In this document: in pieces, positions 10,684 to 55,667 of the stretch | Layout: each line of letters opens with the position of its first letter | How positions within the stretch are numbered: position 1 is the first letter of the stretch | From: Wielerella bovis | Lineage (GTDB): Bacteria > Pseudomonadota > Gammaproteobacteria > Burkholderiales > Neisseriaceae | DNA length: 64,000 nucleotides | Assembly: GCF_022354465.1 (NCBI RefSeq) | Contig: NZ_CP092361.1 | Coordinates: forward strand, 992,001 to 1,056,000 | Reading direction: 5' to 3' | Notes under the pieces: model-generated | The model's database searches: none | The model's input: only the letters and a program-made list of their open reading frames with translations | What the model was told of the DNA's origin: nothing | Translations under genes and position numbers: made by a program

Positions 10684-10789
10684 TATAGTGAAGTAAAATA
10701 AGAAAGATGCAAGGCGACCACGCCCGCTGTGTACAAATAGTACATAAGGGCGTGGTCGCCTTGTCCTATTTTTATTTTAAGCGACTATA
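10684..10789. repeat. Correia-like element, mixed ends
   Basis: TATAGTGAAGTAAAATA at the left and TTATTTTAAGCGACTATA at the right bracket a core GCAAGGCGACCACGCCC ... GGGCGTGGTCGCCTTGTCC. At 106 bp it is the same size as the other elements. The core is a long palindrome, so the RNA should fold strongly behind speD. No gene lies in 10676-10980. Confidence 0.82.
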
Positions 10790-16970: not shown

Positions 16971-17016
16971 AATTTCAGGCAGCCTGAACAACAATTCAGG
17001 CTGCCTGAAATTTTTA
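16971..17016. terminator. Inverted double DUS terminator
   Basis: AATTTCAGGCAGCCTGAA (16971-16988) and its perfect complement (16995-17012) are followed by a T-rich tract. It separates pepN from the convergent restriction-modification gene. Confidence 0.8.
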
Positions 17017-17886
17017 TTTATCAATCTGTTGCATGATTTCCAGCGTTTTGGATAAAGCCAAAATCATTTTTTGATAATGCTCTAAATCAGCCACAGTCAG
17101 CGTTTGCCCTTTGCGGTCTTTCAGCCATTTTTGCGCTGGCTGATAACCGCCAATATACATTTCCCACACGGTTTGCGGCACACCTTTCAGGCTGCCTGTT
17201 TTGCTCCAAAACACGGTTTCATTTTCGTATTTCAATTTATCCACCGTCATATCAGGATTTTCGGCGTTAAATTCGGTGATGAAATTTGCCATATCGCAAT
17301 CATCGTGTTTGAGCGTGTGCCACAAACGCAATTCTTTGCCCAAATCTGCTAAACGGAAAAATTCGCTTGCATTTTCGGGATAAGGAATGCGTGGGAAATT
17401 GGTTTTCAGCATTTCGGCGTATTTTGTCCGATAGTTGGGGCTGTGTAATACGGCATAAATGTAGTCCAATAAATTTTCAGGCGTAAAATCATCACTTCCC
17501 CAATCTTTTTTGATGATTTTGGCGATTTTTTTGACAATGGTTTCATTGATATTGGGCTGGCGTTGCAGGCTGCCTGAAAAATTTAAGGATTGGTTATCGG
17601 GGTACACATACAAAGGGAAAATACTTGTTATCTCACTGGTTTTATTGGAAACATAACCAGATTCCATGATAGTTTCACTAATTAAACAATGCTGATAAGT
17701 TGAGCCTGATTTAAATTGTTTTGTTAGGCATAAACCTAAATTTATTTTTCCTACAAAATGTTTCATCACATTACCACGTGGCATACAATGAAAACCTTTG
17801 CTGTTACCTGTGAAAAATGTATAACGTGTATCAAATGGTCGGTAGGCAATCGGCACAATTTGGTGTGTTTCCAAATGATTTTTCAC
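17014..17886 (-). pseudogene. C-terminal (target-recognition) part of a split type IIG restriction-modification enzyme
   Basis: A 290-residue frame continuing the product of the upstream N-terminal part, from which it is separated by a Correia-like element. It begins in the block NHLETHQIVPIAYRPFDTRYTFFTGNSKGF; YRPFDxRYTxYTGxSxGF is common in single-chain restriction-methylation proteins, after which comes the specificity region. It ends WEMYIGGYQPAQKWLKDRKG, the typical C-terminus of these enzymes. Alone it lacks catalytic motifs. It could be translated from an internal ATG at 17886, but I see no good ribosome site. Removing 106 bp of the element fuses it in frame with the upstream part. Confidence 0.82.
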
Positions 17887-17904
17887 ATCTGTTTGTGCAT
17901 CTGC

Positions 17905-18012
17905 TATAGTCGCAGAATTGAAAAATCATTACAGCGTTGCCAACGTCCTTATGTGTTTTCACACACGGCGGACGTTGTCGCCTTGTACTGTTTTTTCACT
18001 TCTACGACTATA
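17905..18012. repeat. Correia-like element inside the restriction-modification gene
   Basis: Left end TATAGTCGCAGAATTG, right end CACTTCTACGACTATA, core ACAGCGTTGCC ... GTCGCCTTGT. The gene continues on both sides, and TA is present at each edge as expected for a TA target duplication. Deleting 106 bp, leaving one TA, restores the reading frame. The element terminus itself supplies the TAG that ends the N-terminal fragment. Confidence 0.88.
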
Positions 18013-20293
18013 CATTCCAATCGCGCACATCTTTACCTAAATTAAATCGTGTTCGTGCACTTTCTGTTTCCAAATTCACAAATTCATCTAAAATATATTT
18101 CATTCTTTCTTTGCTTGCTTGAATGCACAAATCATCACGAGCAGTAACAATTCCCACACTATTTATTGGGAATAATTCCATTAAATCAATCATTTTATGA
18201 TAATTCGCCAATTCATCTGCATTATAGCTTTTTGGCACAAAGAAATAATCGGGAGCACTAGGCTGCAATTTTGTCCATGAAACTGTATTCAAATCATAAT
18301 TTTGTAAAAATGTGAATTTATCGGCACGTTTTCCAAATAAATTGGCGTGATACACTTTTGCCAATTCGCCTTTTTTCTTTTTCTCGCCCGTTTTCACAAA
18401 AATATTGATGCACACACCTTCGGTAATATCAAAAACATTGTCGTCTTTGCTACCATCAGGGGCGGTTTCCTGCTTTTTACTGTTGCCGTGTAAATCCAAA
18501 ATGTAGATTTGATCGTAAGTTTGTAGCATATTCCAGCGCACACCGCGAAAAATCACGCCATCTAAATAGCTGTTCATATTGATGAAACCGATAACGCCTT
18601 GTTTGGTTTTTTCAATATGGTGCTGGGCGTAGCGAAGAAATTTCACATAATCGTTGTTAATCCATTTGCTGTTGCGTTCTTTTAATTTTTGGTCGGTATT
18701 GGGTTCTTTTTTGTAATCGTCCATTAAACCCATAATCCATTCGCCTTTGTTTTTGCTTTCGCCAAAATAGGGCGGATTACCGACTACCACCATAATGGGA
18801 TTGTCGCGTTTAATCGCATTGGCGCTGTTGGCTTCATTGCTCAACCATTGGGCAAACAATGTGTTGGTGTCGGGGTGGTGTTCTTCCAAAGTGTCGGTTA
18901 GGAAAACGTTTAAGCGTTGTTTGCTGTTTTCAGGCAGCCTGAAATCGGTTTCTTGCAAAACCAAGTCCAATTTTAAATGTGCCATGGCATAACTTGCCAT
19001 CATCAATTCAAAACCGTTTAAGCGTGGAATTAAATCTGTGGGTACATAGTTTTGCCATAAGCCTTTTTGTTTGCCAAATTGGGCGTAAATGTGGCGTACG
19101 ATTTCGGCGAGAAACGTGCCTGTACCTGTGGCAGGGTCTAAAATTTGTACACGGTGGATTTCTTTGTCCGTCATGATTCTTTTGTAGCCACCACCTTTGG
19201 CTTGCTTTTTGGCTGTGGTTTCTACAGCAATTTCGGTTTTGCTGTTATCACGCAAGCCTTGTTTGATGCCCAAATGGGTTTTGAGTGCTTGGTCTATGGC
19301 TTTGACAATAAATTGTACGGCAGGTTGGGGGGTGTACCATACGCCATTTTCTTTACGGATTTTGGGGTCGTATTTTTCCAAAAAGGTTTCATAGAAATGG
19401 ATAAATGGGTCGTCTGTGAGTTTGTTTTTACCAAAATCTTTCAAGATTTTTGGCACGTCTGCCACACGAAAAATGTCGGCAAGTACGTCCACAATCCACA
19501 CAATGCGTGTATCCAAGTTTTCTTCTCCCAATTTTTGGAAGAGTTCACGCAAAAAAGGATTGCTTTTGGGCAACAGTCGGGCTGCTTCATGGCGGCTGAA
19601 TGTTTCGGGCGTATCATCGTGTAAACGTGCAGCAAACATACCGTAAGCCAATGTTTGTGCGTATAAATCAGCAAATTCCTTTTCAGTTAAGTCATGTAAT
19701 AAATGTTCGCGGAAACCTTCTAAATAGCTTTCTAATTCGCTGATTCCATCGCTTTTGGCGTCTTGTTCCAATGCTTTTTTAATCACATCTGCCATCATGC
19801 GAGCTTTGTTTGCCATCATTTCTGCCAAAACCGATGGCGAATTGATTTTTTGCCCTTGATATTGCACAAATGTTTGAATAAGTTGGGTAAATTTTTCAAA
19901 TTCTTCGTGATAAATTTCCATTTGCCCCATAAAGAAATTTGCCAAACGAATATGGGCAATACGTTCGCCGTCCCGATAAAATTCAAATTGTAAATAATCG
20001 GTAATAATCAGATTATCCAAAGCACTTTTGTAACGCGCAAACTGTTCTTGCAAGATTTTGTGGTGTAAATCTACACCAATATCTTTGGCTTCTATATAGC
20101 CAATGGGTAAATCATTGCGTGTGAGAATGTAATCTGGTGCACCACAGGCAATGCGTTTGGGTTCATTGGTTACTTGAATTTCAGGTGCAAGTTGGGCGAT
20201 TAATTTTTGCAAAGCTGGGCGATAACTGTGTTCAGTGGCTTTACCTGAATTGAATAAAGTGTGGCATTCTTGGAGATAGTTTTGGATGGGCAT
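18008..20293 (-). CDS. N-terminal part of a split type IIG restriction-modification enzyme (nuclease and methyltransferase)
   Basis: The 761-residue fragment holds a PD-(D/E)XK-like nuclease site (APDYILTRN, then GYIEAK, about residues 52-70), a helical linker, and an N6-adenine methyltransferase with motif I DPATGTGTF (about 384) and motif IV NPPYF (about 503). This is the layout of single-chain enzymes that cut and methylate. The frame ends DVRDWNV followed by a stop created by the inserted Correia-like element. The target-recognition part lies beyond it at 17014-17886. Reconstructed length is 1057 residues. Loss of the recognition domain should abolish both activities, so I regard the gene as inactivated. 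Confidence 0.85.
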   Translation of the reverse strand: MPIQNYLQECHTLFNSGKATEHSYRPALQKLIAQLAPEIQVTNEPKRIACGAPDYILTRNDLPIGYIEAKDIGVDLHHKILQEQFARYKSALDNLIITDYLQFEFYRDGERIAHIRLANFFMGQMEIYHEEFEKFTQLIQTFVQYQGQKINSPSVLAEMMANKARMMADVIKKALEQDAKSDGISELESYLEGFREHLLHDLTEKEFADLYAQTLAYGMFAARLHDDTPETFSRHEAARLLPKSNPFLRELFQKLGEENLDTRIVWIVDVLADIFRVADVPKILKDFGKNKLTDDPFIHFYETFLEKYDPKIRKENGVWYTPQPAVQFIVKAIDQALKTHLGIKQGLRDNSKTEIAVETTAKKQAKGGGYKRIMTDKEIHRVQILDPATGTGTFLAEIVRHIYAQFGKQKGLWQNYVPTDLIPRLNGFELMMASYAMAHLKLDLVLQETDFRLPENSKQRLNVFLTDTLEEHHPDTNTLFAQWLSNEANSANAIKRDNPIMVVVGNPPYFGESKNKGEWIMGLMDDYKKEPNTDQKLKERNSKWINNDYVKFLRYAQHHIEKTKQGVIGFINMNSYLDGVIFRGVRWNMLQTYDQIYILDLHGNSKKQETAPDGSKDDNVFDITEGVCINIFVKTGEKKKKGELAKVYHANLFGKRADKFTFLQNYDLNTVSWTKLQPSAPDYFFVPKSYNADELANYHKMIDLMELFPINSVGIVTARDDLCIQASKERMKYILDEFVNLETESARTRFNLGKDVRDWNV

Positions 20294-20407: not shown

Positions 20408-20623
20408 GTGCCGATTGTTTTGCCGATTACGACCAAAAGTCAGTTTGCGCGAACACAAGGTTTTGCTGTACATCTGGACGAGCGCACCAAAACACAAGGC
20501 ATTATCCGCACCGACCAGCCACGCGCTTTGGACATTAACGCAAGAAATGGCAGGAAATTGGAAACCTTACCGATTGATTTAATGAATGAAGTGTTGGCGA
20601 AAATGGCGACTTTTTTAAGCTGA
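20408..20623 (+). pseudogene. 5'-truncated MazF/ChpB-type toxin gene
   Basis: The 71-codon frame gives LPITTKSQFARTQGFAVHL, then IIRTDQPRALDINARNGRKLE and LMNEVLAKMATFL, which matches the C-terminal two thirds of ChpB/PemK endoribonucleases. The N-terminal 40-45 residues, with the GDIVW/RPALVLS motif, are absent, and no antitoxin gene is next to it. The upstream sequence contains only a DUS and AT-rich DNA. The GTG at 20408 has no clear ribosome site, so this is a remnant. Confidence 0.75.
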
Positions 20624-20833: not shown

Positions 20834-20940
20834 TATAGTGAATTCACTTTAAACCAGTACAGCGTTGCCAGCTCCCTTATGTACTATGTGTACACGGCGG
20901 TCGCTGTCGCCTTGTCCTGATTTAAATTGAATCCACTATA
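20834..20940. repeat. Correia-like element, TATAGTGAATTC end type
   Basis: A 107-bp element with TATAGTGAATTCACTTTAAA at the left and TTTAAATTGAATCCACTATA at the right, and the standard core with ACAGCGTTGCCAGCTCCC and GTCGCTGTCGCCTTGTCC. It is the most complete copy of this subtype in the window, sitting upstream of tldD. Confidence 0.88.
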
Positions 20941-21067
20941 GTTATGTTTATTTTAAATATCTATATGCCATTTTTTACACAAAATATCGTATAATTTAAG
21001 GTGTTTATCACTCCTAATGTTTCAGGCTGCCTATCTCATTACAGGCAGCCTGAAACATTCACACACA

Positions 21068-33687: not shown

Positions 33688-33789
33688 ATAACAGTATTTG
33701 CATATACGGTATATGCTTCACATATTTTTTAATAGCAAAAACCTTTATAGGTGTAGAATTAAATAAACGGTACACACAGGAGAACAGTT

Positions 33790-34092
33790 ATGGCTTATTC
33801 ACAAGATTATCGCCAAATGATTTTAGAAAAATTAAATTCGGGTTACAGCTACCGTGAATTGGCAGCGGAATATGGCATCAGTCGCAGTACCATTCAACTA
33901 TGGAAAAAATGCATTGAACGTAAACCCTACCCCAAAAGAACCAATAAAATCAATGATGAATTATTGCGAAAAGACGTAGAACAATTTCCTGATGATTTTC
34001 AAAGAGAACGCGCTGTTCGCTTTAACTGTTCACAAAGAGCCATTGGTGTGGCACTTAAACGGCTAAAAATCACTCAAAAAAAAGATTCTTAA
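33790..34092 (+). CDS. IS630-family transposase, helix-turn-helix part (orfA)
   Basis: The 100-residue frame is the DNA-binding half of the transposase: DYRQMILEKLNSGYSYRELAAEYGISRSTIQLWKK is a textbook helix-turn-helix, followed by a second helical unit (NCSQRAIGVALKRLKITQKK). ATG has CAGGAG eight bases upstream. The frame ends just after eight A (34076-34083). The catalytic part continues in another frame, which is reached if one A is removed or the ribosome shifts by +1. Confidence 0.85.
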   Translation: MAYSQDYRQMILEKLNSGYSYRELAAEYGISRSTIQLWKKCIERKPYPKRTNKINDELLRKDVEQFPDDFQRERAVRFNCSQRAIGVALKRLKITQKKDS

Positions 34093-34627
34093 ACACCCCA
34101 AAGCTCAACCCGAAACAATTGAACAATTTCTCTCATTAAAACAACAGTATGAGCAAGAGAAACGTCCTATTGTTTATATTGATGAAAGTGGTTTTAAAAA
34201 CCAAACTTATCGTCCTTATGCCTATGCGCCAAGAGGACAAGTTTGTCATGGCAATCACAACTGGCAAATCAAAAACACAACCAATGCCATTGGCGCACTG
34301 TACCAAAATCAATTGATTGCAGTGGGTTTGTATGAATTCAGCATCAATTCAGATGTGTTTTATTCATGGGTTCAAAACGTTTTACTGCCACAATTACCAC
34401 CTAACAGTGTTTTGGTTATGGATAATGCGACTTTTCACAAACGCCAGGACATTCAAGAGCTTATTGTTTTATCAGGGCATGTGATTTTATGGTTACCGCC
34501 ATACTGTCCTGATTTGAATTTAATTGAGCACACTTGGGCTTGGATTAAACATTTACGTCAAGATTGGTTATTGGATTGCATTCACTCTTTGTTTTTTTAT
34601 TTTACTTGGTTGTGTACCGAATTTTAA
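34082..34627 (+). CDS. IS630-family transposase, catalytic part (orfB, reached by frameshift)
   Basis: This frame is open from the A8 run and reads ILKHPKAQPETIEQF, then the DDE residues: D in IVYIDESGF (about residue 30), D in VLVMDNATFHKR, and E in PDLNLIEHTWAWIKH. The C-terminal end (LLDCIHSLFFYF) is near the usual length. It has no start codon or ribosome site at its beginning, so expression needs a shift at the A8 run or slippage by RNA polymerase. Fused with orfA the protein would have about 278 residues. It may be functional or a one-base null. Confidence 0.78.
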   Translation, partial: KILKHPKAQPETIEQFLSLKQQYEQEKRPIVYIDESGFKNQTYRPYAYAPRGQVCHGNHNWQIKNTTNAIGALYQNQLIAVGLYEFSINSDVFYSWVQNVLLPQLPPNSVLVMDNATFHKRQDIQELIVLSGHVILWLPPYCPDLNLIEHTWAWIKHLRQDWLLDCIHSLFFYFTWLCTEF

Positions 34628-34650
34628 TTTCTTTATCTATACAAAACTTA

Positions 34651-47716: not shown

Positions 47717-47838
47717 TATAGTGGATTCAATTTATATAGTGAATTCAATTTAAACCAGTATAGCGTTGCCAGCTCTCTATGTACTCGGTGTACACGGCGG
47801 TTGCTGTCGTCTTGTCCTGATTTAGTGAATCCACTATA
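47717..47838. repeat. Correia-like element nested on a left-end fragment
   Basis: A 104-bp element (47735-47838) with TATAGTGAATTCAATTTAAA at the left and GTGAATCCACTATA at the right is preceded immediately by an isolated left end, TATAGTGGATTCAATTTA (47717-47734). The fragment suggests insertion of one copy in another, followed by loss. It lies before the stop of a minus-strand gene. Confidence 0.82.
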
Positions 47839-53554: not shown

Positions 53555-53684
53555 TATAGTTGTTTGAAATTAACACATATAGCACTATTAGCTCCCTTAA
53601 TGTTAGGTGTACACGACAGTCGCTGTCGCCTTGTCCGAGTTAAGAAGCTGACAATGCTGTATTATTTTTATTTACACGACTATA
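53555..53684. repeat. Degenerate Correia-like elements, partly duplicated
   Basis: TATAGTTGTTTGAAATTAAC at the left and TTTACACGACTATA at the right enclose AGTCGCTGTCGCCTTGTCC plus an extra piece. Another fragment (GCAAAGCGACAGCGACTCAC, 53521 on) precedes it. At about 130 bp it looks like two copies merged or repeatedly rearranged. The region 53294-53782 contains no gene apart from these and two DUS. Confidence 0.65.
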
Positions 53685-55560: not shown

Positions 55561-55667
55561 TATAGTCGTTTCAAATACAAATAGTACAGCGTTGCCAACG
55601 CCCTTATGTACTACTTGTACAAGGTGGTCGTTGTCGCCTTGTCCTATTTTAATTTGAAACGACTATA
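55561..55667. repeat. Correia-like element, TATAGTCG end type
   Basis: A 107-bp element with TATAGTCGTTTCAAATACAA and TTTAATTTGAAACGACTATA as ends and the core AGTACAGCGTTGCC ... GTTGTCGCCTTGTCC. It is the clearest copy with this kind of end. Confidence 0.88.

Follow-up and report, generated by a model that had tools for sequence, protein, structure and literature searches.

A stretch of 64,000 nucleotides from Wielerella bovis (contig NZ_CP092361.1, positions 992,001 to 1,056,000; referred to below as the window) carries a restriction-modification (R-M) gene that is interrupted at a TA by a 108-bp miniature element related to the Correia elements of Neisseria. On the minus strand, from 20293 to 17014, the listing of open reading frames (ORFs) gives two frames, of 761 and 290 amino acids, which are separated by the element.

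18008 to 20293, minus strand: 5' piece of the R-M gene, 761 amino acids, its stop codon supplied by the element
17905 to 18012, no strand assigned: 108-bp Correia-like miniature element of end class a, its terminal TA coinciding with the duplicated TA of the target
17014 to 17904, minus strand: 3' piece of the R-M gene with the target-recognition domain (Type_ISP_C positions 73-341); the listed ORF of 290 amino acids starts with GTG at 17886

The interrupted gene

An earlier note on this DNA had described a 108-bp separation of the nuclease and methyltransferase side of the gene from its recognition side, and the coordinates of the element (17905-18012) bear this out. The TAG that ends the 761-aa ORF lies inside the element's own terminal TATAG. 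The 290-aa ORF of the 3' piece occupies 17014-17886 of the minus strand, and when this piece is read from the first base past the element it is open for 296 amino acids and begins ADAQTDVKNHLETHQIVPIAYRPFDTRYTFFTG. Removal of 106 of the 3280 bases, which keeps one TA, leaves 3174 bases or 1058 codons with the stop counted, and the protein then runs through the junction as GKDVRDWNV / ADAQTDV; the in-frame joining claimed in the earlier note agrees with this arithmetic as well as with the alignment of 10 relatives presented below. The joined pieces contain, the insert aside, zero stops and zero frameshifts, so that the further stops for which the reconstructed frame was to be checked are not present. 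At one spot the pieces lack six residues found in at least 80% of the 10 relatives. The view that nothing else in the gene has decayed is in keeping with the lack of stops and frameshifts, but a recent insertion does not follow, as a single genome gives no date.

The gene is described here as encoding a Type IIG-like enzyme whose recognition domain is of the Type ISP kind. The Pfam family Type_ISP_C is divided by the element, with profile positions 1-55 in the 5' piece and 73-341 in the 3' piece, and the best PADLOC model, the Type IIG model PDLC03610, is divided likewise and collinearly (E 1.8e-249 for the 5' piece and 1.2e-61 for the 3' piece). The 5' piece includes PDYIL..GYIEAK at residue 53, LDPATGTGTF at 385 and NPPY at 506, which we take to be nuclease and adenine-methyltransferase motifs; for the nuclease part, the motif is accompanied by an HSDR_N match that lies below its cut-off (E 0.0033). 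Sequence matches in the PDB comprised LlaBIII, LlaGI and an adenine methyltransferase, which covered the methyltransferase and C-terminal parts alone, and domain-family scans detected no helicase family in either piece. The predicted protein is thus similar to Type ISP enzymes such as LlaBIII and LlaGI, and to Type IIG enzymes, in combining an N6-adenine methyltransferase with a Type_ISP_C recognition domain in a single chain, but unlike Type ISP enzymes the window gene comprises 1058 codons if joined, has no detected helicase or translocase domain and is interrupted. Its G+C content is 0.39-0.40, compared with 0.43 for the window. As a disrupted gene it is ordinary in kind, though a clean case.

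The site before insertion was examined by adding the two pieces, as separate fragments, to an alignment of 10 uninterrupted relatives (12 had been extracted, of which L040 was left out as a wrong ORF and L117, of 716 amino acids, for its length). The 5' piece stops at column 1071 and the 3' piece begins at column 1072, with none of the 10 relatives having a residue between. The nearest full-length relative used, an uninterrupted Acinetobacter plasmid gene (L124, 1058 amino acids; its protein is 55.0% identical to the 5' piece and 44.3% identical to the 3' piece), has GKDVRDWKVQYAKTDL at the place of the window junction, and its codon aligned with the junction is GTA, which occurs there in one of the seven relatives compared at the DNA level. 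The same genome also provides a nested case, in which a class-a copy of 109 bp lies within a canonical-type Correia element; the two arms and one TA align at 101 of 105 positions with the canonical element at 20834-20940 of the window, so that the empty site is a single TA. Insertion at a TA with duplication of that TA thus holds for the window element, and the split of a single-chain gene by a Correia-like element, as proposed in the earlier note, is supported by the in-register junction, the GTA of one relative and the nested single-TA insertion. The assertion that the locus demonstrates a TA target is upheld as to the target and not as to priority, since PMC2649163 had earlier reported that Correia elements target TA and disrupt genes (this and the other papers cited by accession are represented here by excerpts of their text). 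More nested or abutting Correia-type elements, with different end classes, were observed at L002 (2205180-2205460) and L023 (1562280-1562570), the latter of which, a second nested case at 1562 kb, gives no clean single TA, with about three extra bases on one side.

The 108-bp element and its Correia core

The element, which runs TATAGTCG...CGACTATA (also written TATAGTCGCAGAATTG...CACTTCTACGACTATA), encodes no protein and is bounded by imperfect inverted ends, 16 of 20 positions after TATAG being in agreement.

17905 to 17931, plus strand: left terminal inverted repeat, TATAGTCGCAGAATTGAAAAATCATTA
17986 to 18012, minus strand: right terminal inverted repeat, TATAGTCGTAGAAGTGAAAAAACAGTA; its best match is the left end of the insertion sequence IS630-A introduced below (16/22)

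The element's own genome (2,294,361 bases, one contig) contains at least 47 matches to it, including at least 18 that extend across essentially the whole element, the window copy among them (copy search at E <=1, with 40 of 250 candidates scored). Among the 18 listed full-length copies, seven are identical; a further two share one sequence, which is two bases off the window copy. Chance is excluded because the class-a terminal pattern is found at 105 genome sites, as against one site for the reversed control. The transcript of the element is predicted to fold as one 108-nt hairpin (-49.9 kcal/mol, z -8.79). Related elements were matched in 21 of the 83 genomes of the family, its own included; the element had no match in a phage collection, and a scan of the window with Rfam at the gathering threshold returned 0 matches. 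Short class-a variants of 72-79 bp with paired ends (G000:C1 124817-124895, 221609-221683, 247509-247580 and 1312838-1312911) recall the 69-73 bp short Correia forms of PMC2649163.

Three other elements in the window were compared with it.

20834 to 20940, no strand assigned: Correia element of canonical type with end class c, 107 bp long and situated 0.5 kb upstream of the R-M gene, its core common with the element at 17905
10684 to 10789, no strand assigned: Correia-like element of end class b, its right end IS630-B-like
55561 to 55667, no strand assigned: Correia-like element of end class b', used for core and end comparison

The core of the window element agrees with that of the canonical element at 20834 at 41 of 52 positions (score 53, with a maximum of 13 in 1000 shuffles) and with that of the element at 55561 at 42 of 52 (score 57, shuffle maximum 13). 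The term Correia-like, as used in the earlier note, is thus justified by a core held in common with Correia elements but not by the ends. The published Correia end pattern (26 bp, TATAG[CT]GGATTAA(CAAAAA or ATTTAAA).., <=3 mismatches) is not matched by the ends TATAGTCGCAGAATTGAAAA.. and TATAGTCGTAGAAGTGAAAA.., the terminal repeat TATAGTCGNAGAANTGAAAA exceeds three mismatches, and the left end agrees with TATAGTGGATTAAATTTAAATCAGGAC at about 8 of 22 positions by a count made by eye. Because its ends are unlike the published Correia repeats, the element is called Correia-like here and not a Correia repeat enclosed element (CREE). The canonical end pattern itself occurs at 293 sites in this genome (control 0) and is present in 30 of the 83 family genomes, while the pattern of the B and b ends occurs at 97 sites in the same genome (control 0).

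The window contains more, partly rearranged, Correia-like elements at 47717-47838, at 53555-53684 and from 40313 onward, as well as 90 copies of AGGCAGCCTGAA and 36 of AGGCTGCCTGAA, which we take to be uptake-sequence-like repeats. Between the R-M gene and an ORF at 21017, on the plus strand at 20408-20620, lies the remnant of a PemK/MazF-like toxin from a toxin-antitoxin pair, which matches PF02452 over positions 39-108 (E 3.5e-11).

Similarity between element ends and IS630 ends

DDE_3 (IS630-type) transposases gave 29 matches in the genome, which includes two IS630-type insertion sequences, A and B.

33746 to 34641, plus strand: IS630-A copy, one of 18, 896 bp, with a DDE_3 transposase; the candidate for moving elements of end class a

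The 16 examined copies of IS630-A are 0-5 of 896 bases off their consensus and have the ends TATAGGTGTAGAATTAAATAAACGGTAC and TATAGATAAAGAAATTAAAATTCGGTAC; IS630-B, of 902 bp, has the ends TATAGTCAATTCAAAATAAAATAGTAC (3/5 copies) and TATAGTCAGTTAAAATAAGAATAGGAC (5/5 copies). The termini of the IS630 copies read as TATAG..CTATA. Both transposases are split between frames (that of A close to eight consecutive A bases), perhaps through programmed frameshifting or through decay, and six of the 18 IS630-A copies have one TAA within the scored stretch. At least four of the 16 copies (L052, L057, L077 and L078) immediately abut the terminal TATA of a Correia end of canonical type, as if Correia element ends were favoured targets of IS630-A (left flanks examined for 16 copies, right flanks for 4).

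Element and IS630 ends were compared over the 22 positions after TATAG, without gaps and with permutation p values; since 121 comparisons were made, single p values near 0.01 weigh little. A null built from TATAG sites (131 of 180 kept after removal of sites resembling element ends) reached 18/22 and was replaced by permutation. The class-a ends agree with the IS630-A ends at 13-16 of 22 positions (p <=0.0122 for all eight pairs) and with an A-clade IS630 of genome G094 at 13-15, as against 7-10 with B-clade ends (p >=0.17, chance level when ungapped). The ends of classes b and b' agree with B-clade ends at 16-19 of 22 positions, with blastn E values down to 1.4e-6 and alignments that stop at the termini, and the canonical class-c ends agree with the B ends of their own genome at 12-16. 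Two published Correia repeats reach 12-16 of 22 against B-clade ends (p <=0.0099), and the other two, which are one base shorter, agree with them at 12-15 of 21 positions once a single gap is permitted (p 0.0005-0.056); the element end at 53684 scores 9-11 of 22 against B-clade ends ungapped and 15-16 with one gap. The inner motifs GTAC and GGAC, by which the published Correia repeats are told apart, both occur in B-clade ends. Among 23 further IS630 loci, six have a transposase domain 74-77% identical to that of B; the five of these six with a readable TATAG pair score 13-16 against Correia repeats, compared with 6-14 for eight other IS630 with pairs.

With up to 3 mismatches, the A/a pattern is found at 55 sites, of which 18 are ends of IS630-A and 37 are ends of elements (0 sites for the control), although zero-mismatch matches of the A/a and B/b patterns arise by construction, as both were derived from the sequences compared, with N where these differ. 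The ends of the window element thus resemble those of an insertion sequence of the IS630 family in its own genome, a trait by which IS630 miniature inverted-repeat transposable elements are recognized, and one core seems to occur with the ends of two IS630 clades.

Origin of the insertion, alternatives and known systems

We consider it probable that a non-autonomous element of the Correia type split the gene at the TA of a GTA codon, most likely after being moved in trans by a transposase of the IS630 family. The miniature transposon would have entered the TA of this codon in a Type IIG-like gene, with duplication of the TA; its terminal TATAG provides a stop in frame at once, and the addition of 106 bases shifts the frame as well, so that the methyltransferase part would be made without the recognition domain and the enzyme would most likely be dead. 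IS630-A would be the transposon that moves end class a, and IS630-B-type elements those that move the canonical Correia and b classes. The in-register interruption, the TA target, the common core and the likeness of the ends are shown by the sequences; movement in trans, the matching of a transposase to each end class and the loss of activity are inferred. It is an evenly balanced matter whether the Correia core has been handed on as a module from one transposase system to another, so that clade B would mobilise the canonical and b classes and clade A a class in which this core has exchanged ends.

Several results weigh against this account. In the 61 genomes searched, no insert-free allele turned up in the same species or genus: seven of these match at E <=0.001, including the genome itself, and the other six matches are weak, with 23-29% identity over part of the protein. 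Fourteen of 398 genomes of the phylum pass E 1e-60, again with its own included, and the closest relatives found belong to other groups. The uninterrupted allele sought at the suggestion of the earlier note was thus obtained as 10 intact relatives, one of the seven compared as DNA having GTA at the site, and not from the species or genus, so that the empty state is deduced from relatives at about 55% (5') and 44% (3') identity at best. The match of a to A is moderate, and end similarity is no proof of mobilisation in trans. When one gap is permitted, the clades separate less cleanly: the element's right end then agrees with the left ends of two B-clade IS630 at 13 and 14 of 23 positions (p 0.039 and 0.015), and the right end of A is matched by one published repeat at 15 of 22 positions (0/2000 permutations) and by another at 14 (p 0.012). 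Two published repeats score, ungapped, 8-12 of 21 against B-clade ends, and the right end of the A-clade IS630 of G094 reaches 11-14 when compared with published ends and with those of classes b and c. Past the ends, no convincing similarity was detected between elements and insertion sequences, the best other match being one of 20 bases between class c and IS630-A (E 7.5e-4). Finally, no DDE_3 match was found in five of the 16 Correia-rich genomes (G009, G019, G064, G080 and G081; four are drafts), including beside at least 10 full-length class-a copies in G019 and 477 canonical ends in G081. Clade B IS630 is still present in several genomes of the family, which have 548 (G076), 236 (G066), 130 (G077), 74 (G071), 11 (G093) and 0 (G061) canonical ends. 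A DDE_3 match was found in 11 of the 16 genomes with at least 19 canonical ends and in 18 of the 67 others (Fisher p 0.003), a co-occurrence that is given little weight, because the threshold was set after the counts had been seen and relatedness was uncorrected.

The absence of DDE_3 matches from those five Correia-rich genomes would also be expected if another, unsampled transposase, for example of the IS5/IS427 type, moved the element and the likeness to IS630 reflected convergence on an AT-rich consensus led by TATAG. This is unlikely. In its favour, the transposase search of the genome covered two families, DDE_3 and DDE_Tnp_1_2, the latter with 9 matches and none above the cut-off, and the excerpt of PMC9778887 (2022) names for gonococcus and meningococcus the groups IS5 (including IS427), IS30, IS110 and IS1595 and not IS630. 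However, ungapped end matching tracks the IS630 clades, B-clade ends hold both GGAC and GTAC, and the sole other insertion-sequence end scored in the genome, that of a DDE_Tnp_1_2 element rejected as a mover, reaches 3-9 of 22 against the element ends. Moreover, PMC2817692 (2010), citing a 2002 paper, lists Correia elements among miniature elements derived from IS630, and the absence of IS630 from the list in PMC9778887 would fit a loss of the mover in gonococcus and meningococcus. Arrival of the gene in an already interrupted state, by transformation or another transfer, is improbable; the 60 other genomes searched hold no close homologue, the gene has a G+C content below that of the window and the closest relatives found are in other groups, but the subfamily of the inserted copy has two near-identical copies elsewhere in the genome. 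Since related elements occur in 21 of the 83 family genomes, a donor inside the family is still compatible with these data.

We think it very unlikely that the split gene works as two chains, a methyltransferase and nuclease part and a separate recognition part, even though the GTG-started 290-aa ORF spans nearly all of the recognition domain and promoters have been reported within Correia elements (PMC2649163, PMC10969869). The sole promoter-like site to overlap the element, at 17882-17910, lies on the plus strand and is not directed toward the 3' piece, promoter-like sites are near the shuffle level (2 versus a mean of 1.2, sd 1.0), and the predicted 108-nt hairpin is of a kind that RNase III is reported to cut (PMC10969869). 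An assembly artefact, in which repeats were confused and the element misplaced into the gene, would be helped by the two near-identical copies elsewhere in the genome, yet it is scarcely credible, as the flanks continue a single gene in register, the window copy is two bases off the others and the genome is one contig. The preferred account remains insertion of the element at the TA, with an IS630-family transposase as its probable mover.

The interest that remains beyond the gene lies in the element, which has a Correia core with different ends, and in the IS630 clades that resemble each end class. The statement in PMC2817692 places the general link between Correia elements and IS630 already in print, while the excerpt of PMC2649163 (2009) calls the mobilising mechanism of Correia elements undetermined. 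In the open literature, as distinct from ISfinder and subscription papers, the excerpts did not say which IS630 elements match in their ends, nor that one core occurs with the ends of two clades; the new part may thus be the pairing of end classes with named IS630 clades and the exchange of ends. In Neisseria, Correia elements reshape how genes are regulated and which genes are present, and transposase clades with matching ends, in genomes with hundreds of Correia ends, represent concrete candidate enzymes.

The element is similar to the Correia elements of Neisseria (also termed CREE or nemis) in its size class of 104-108 bp, its TATAG..CTATA ends, TA target, core and many copies and, as predicted here, in its hairpin transcript; its 108 bp fit the shorter of the CREE length classes of 104-108 or 153-157 bp (PMC2649163). 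Mobilisation in trans is proposed by analogy with RUP and IS630-Spn1, for which it was itself deduced from end similarity (PMC2229807). RUP of pneumococcus is likewise a miniature element, of 107 bp, that is found at TA and has ends matching those of IS630-Spn1, its proposed mover (PMC2229807, PMC3049150). In contrast to RUP, whose host is Gram-positive, the W. bovis elements appear to combine one core with ends that pair with two IS630 clades.

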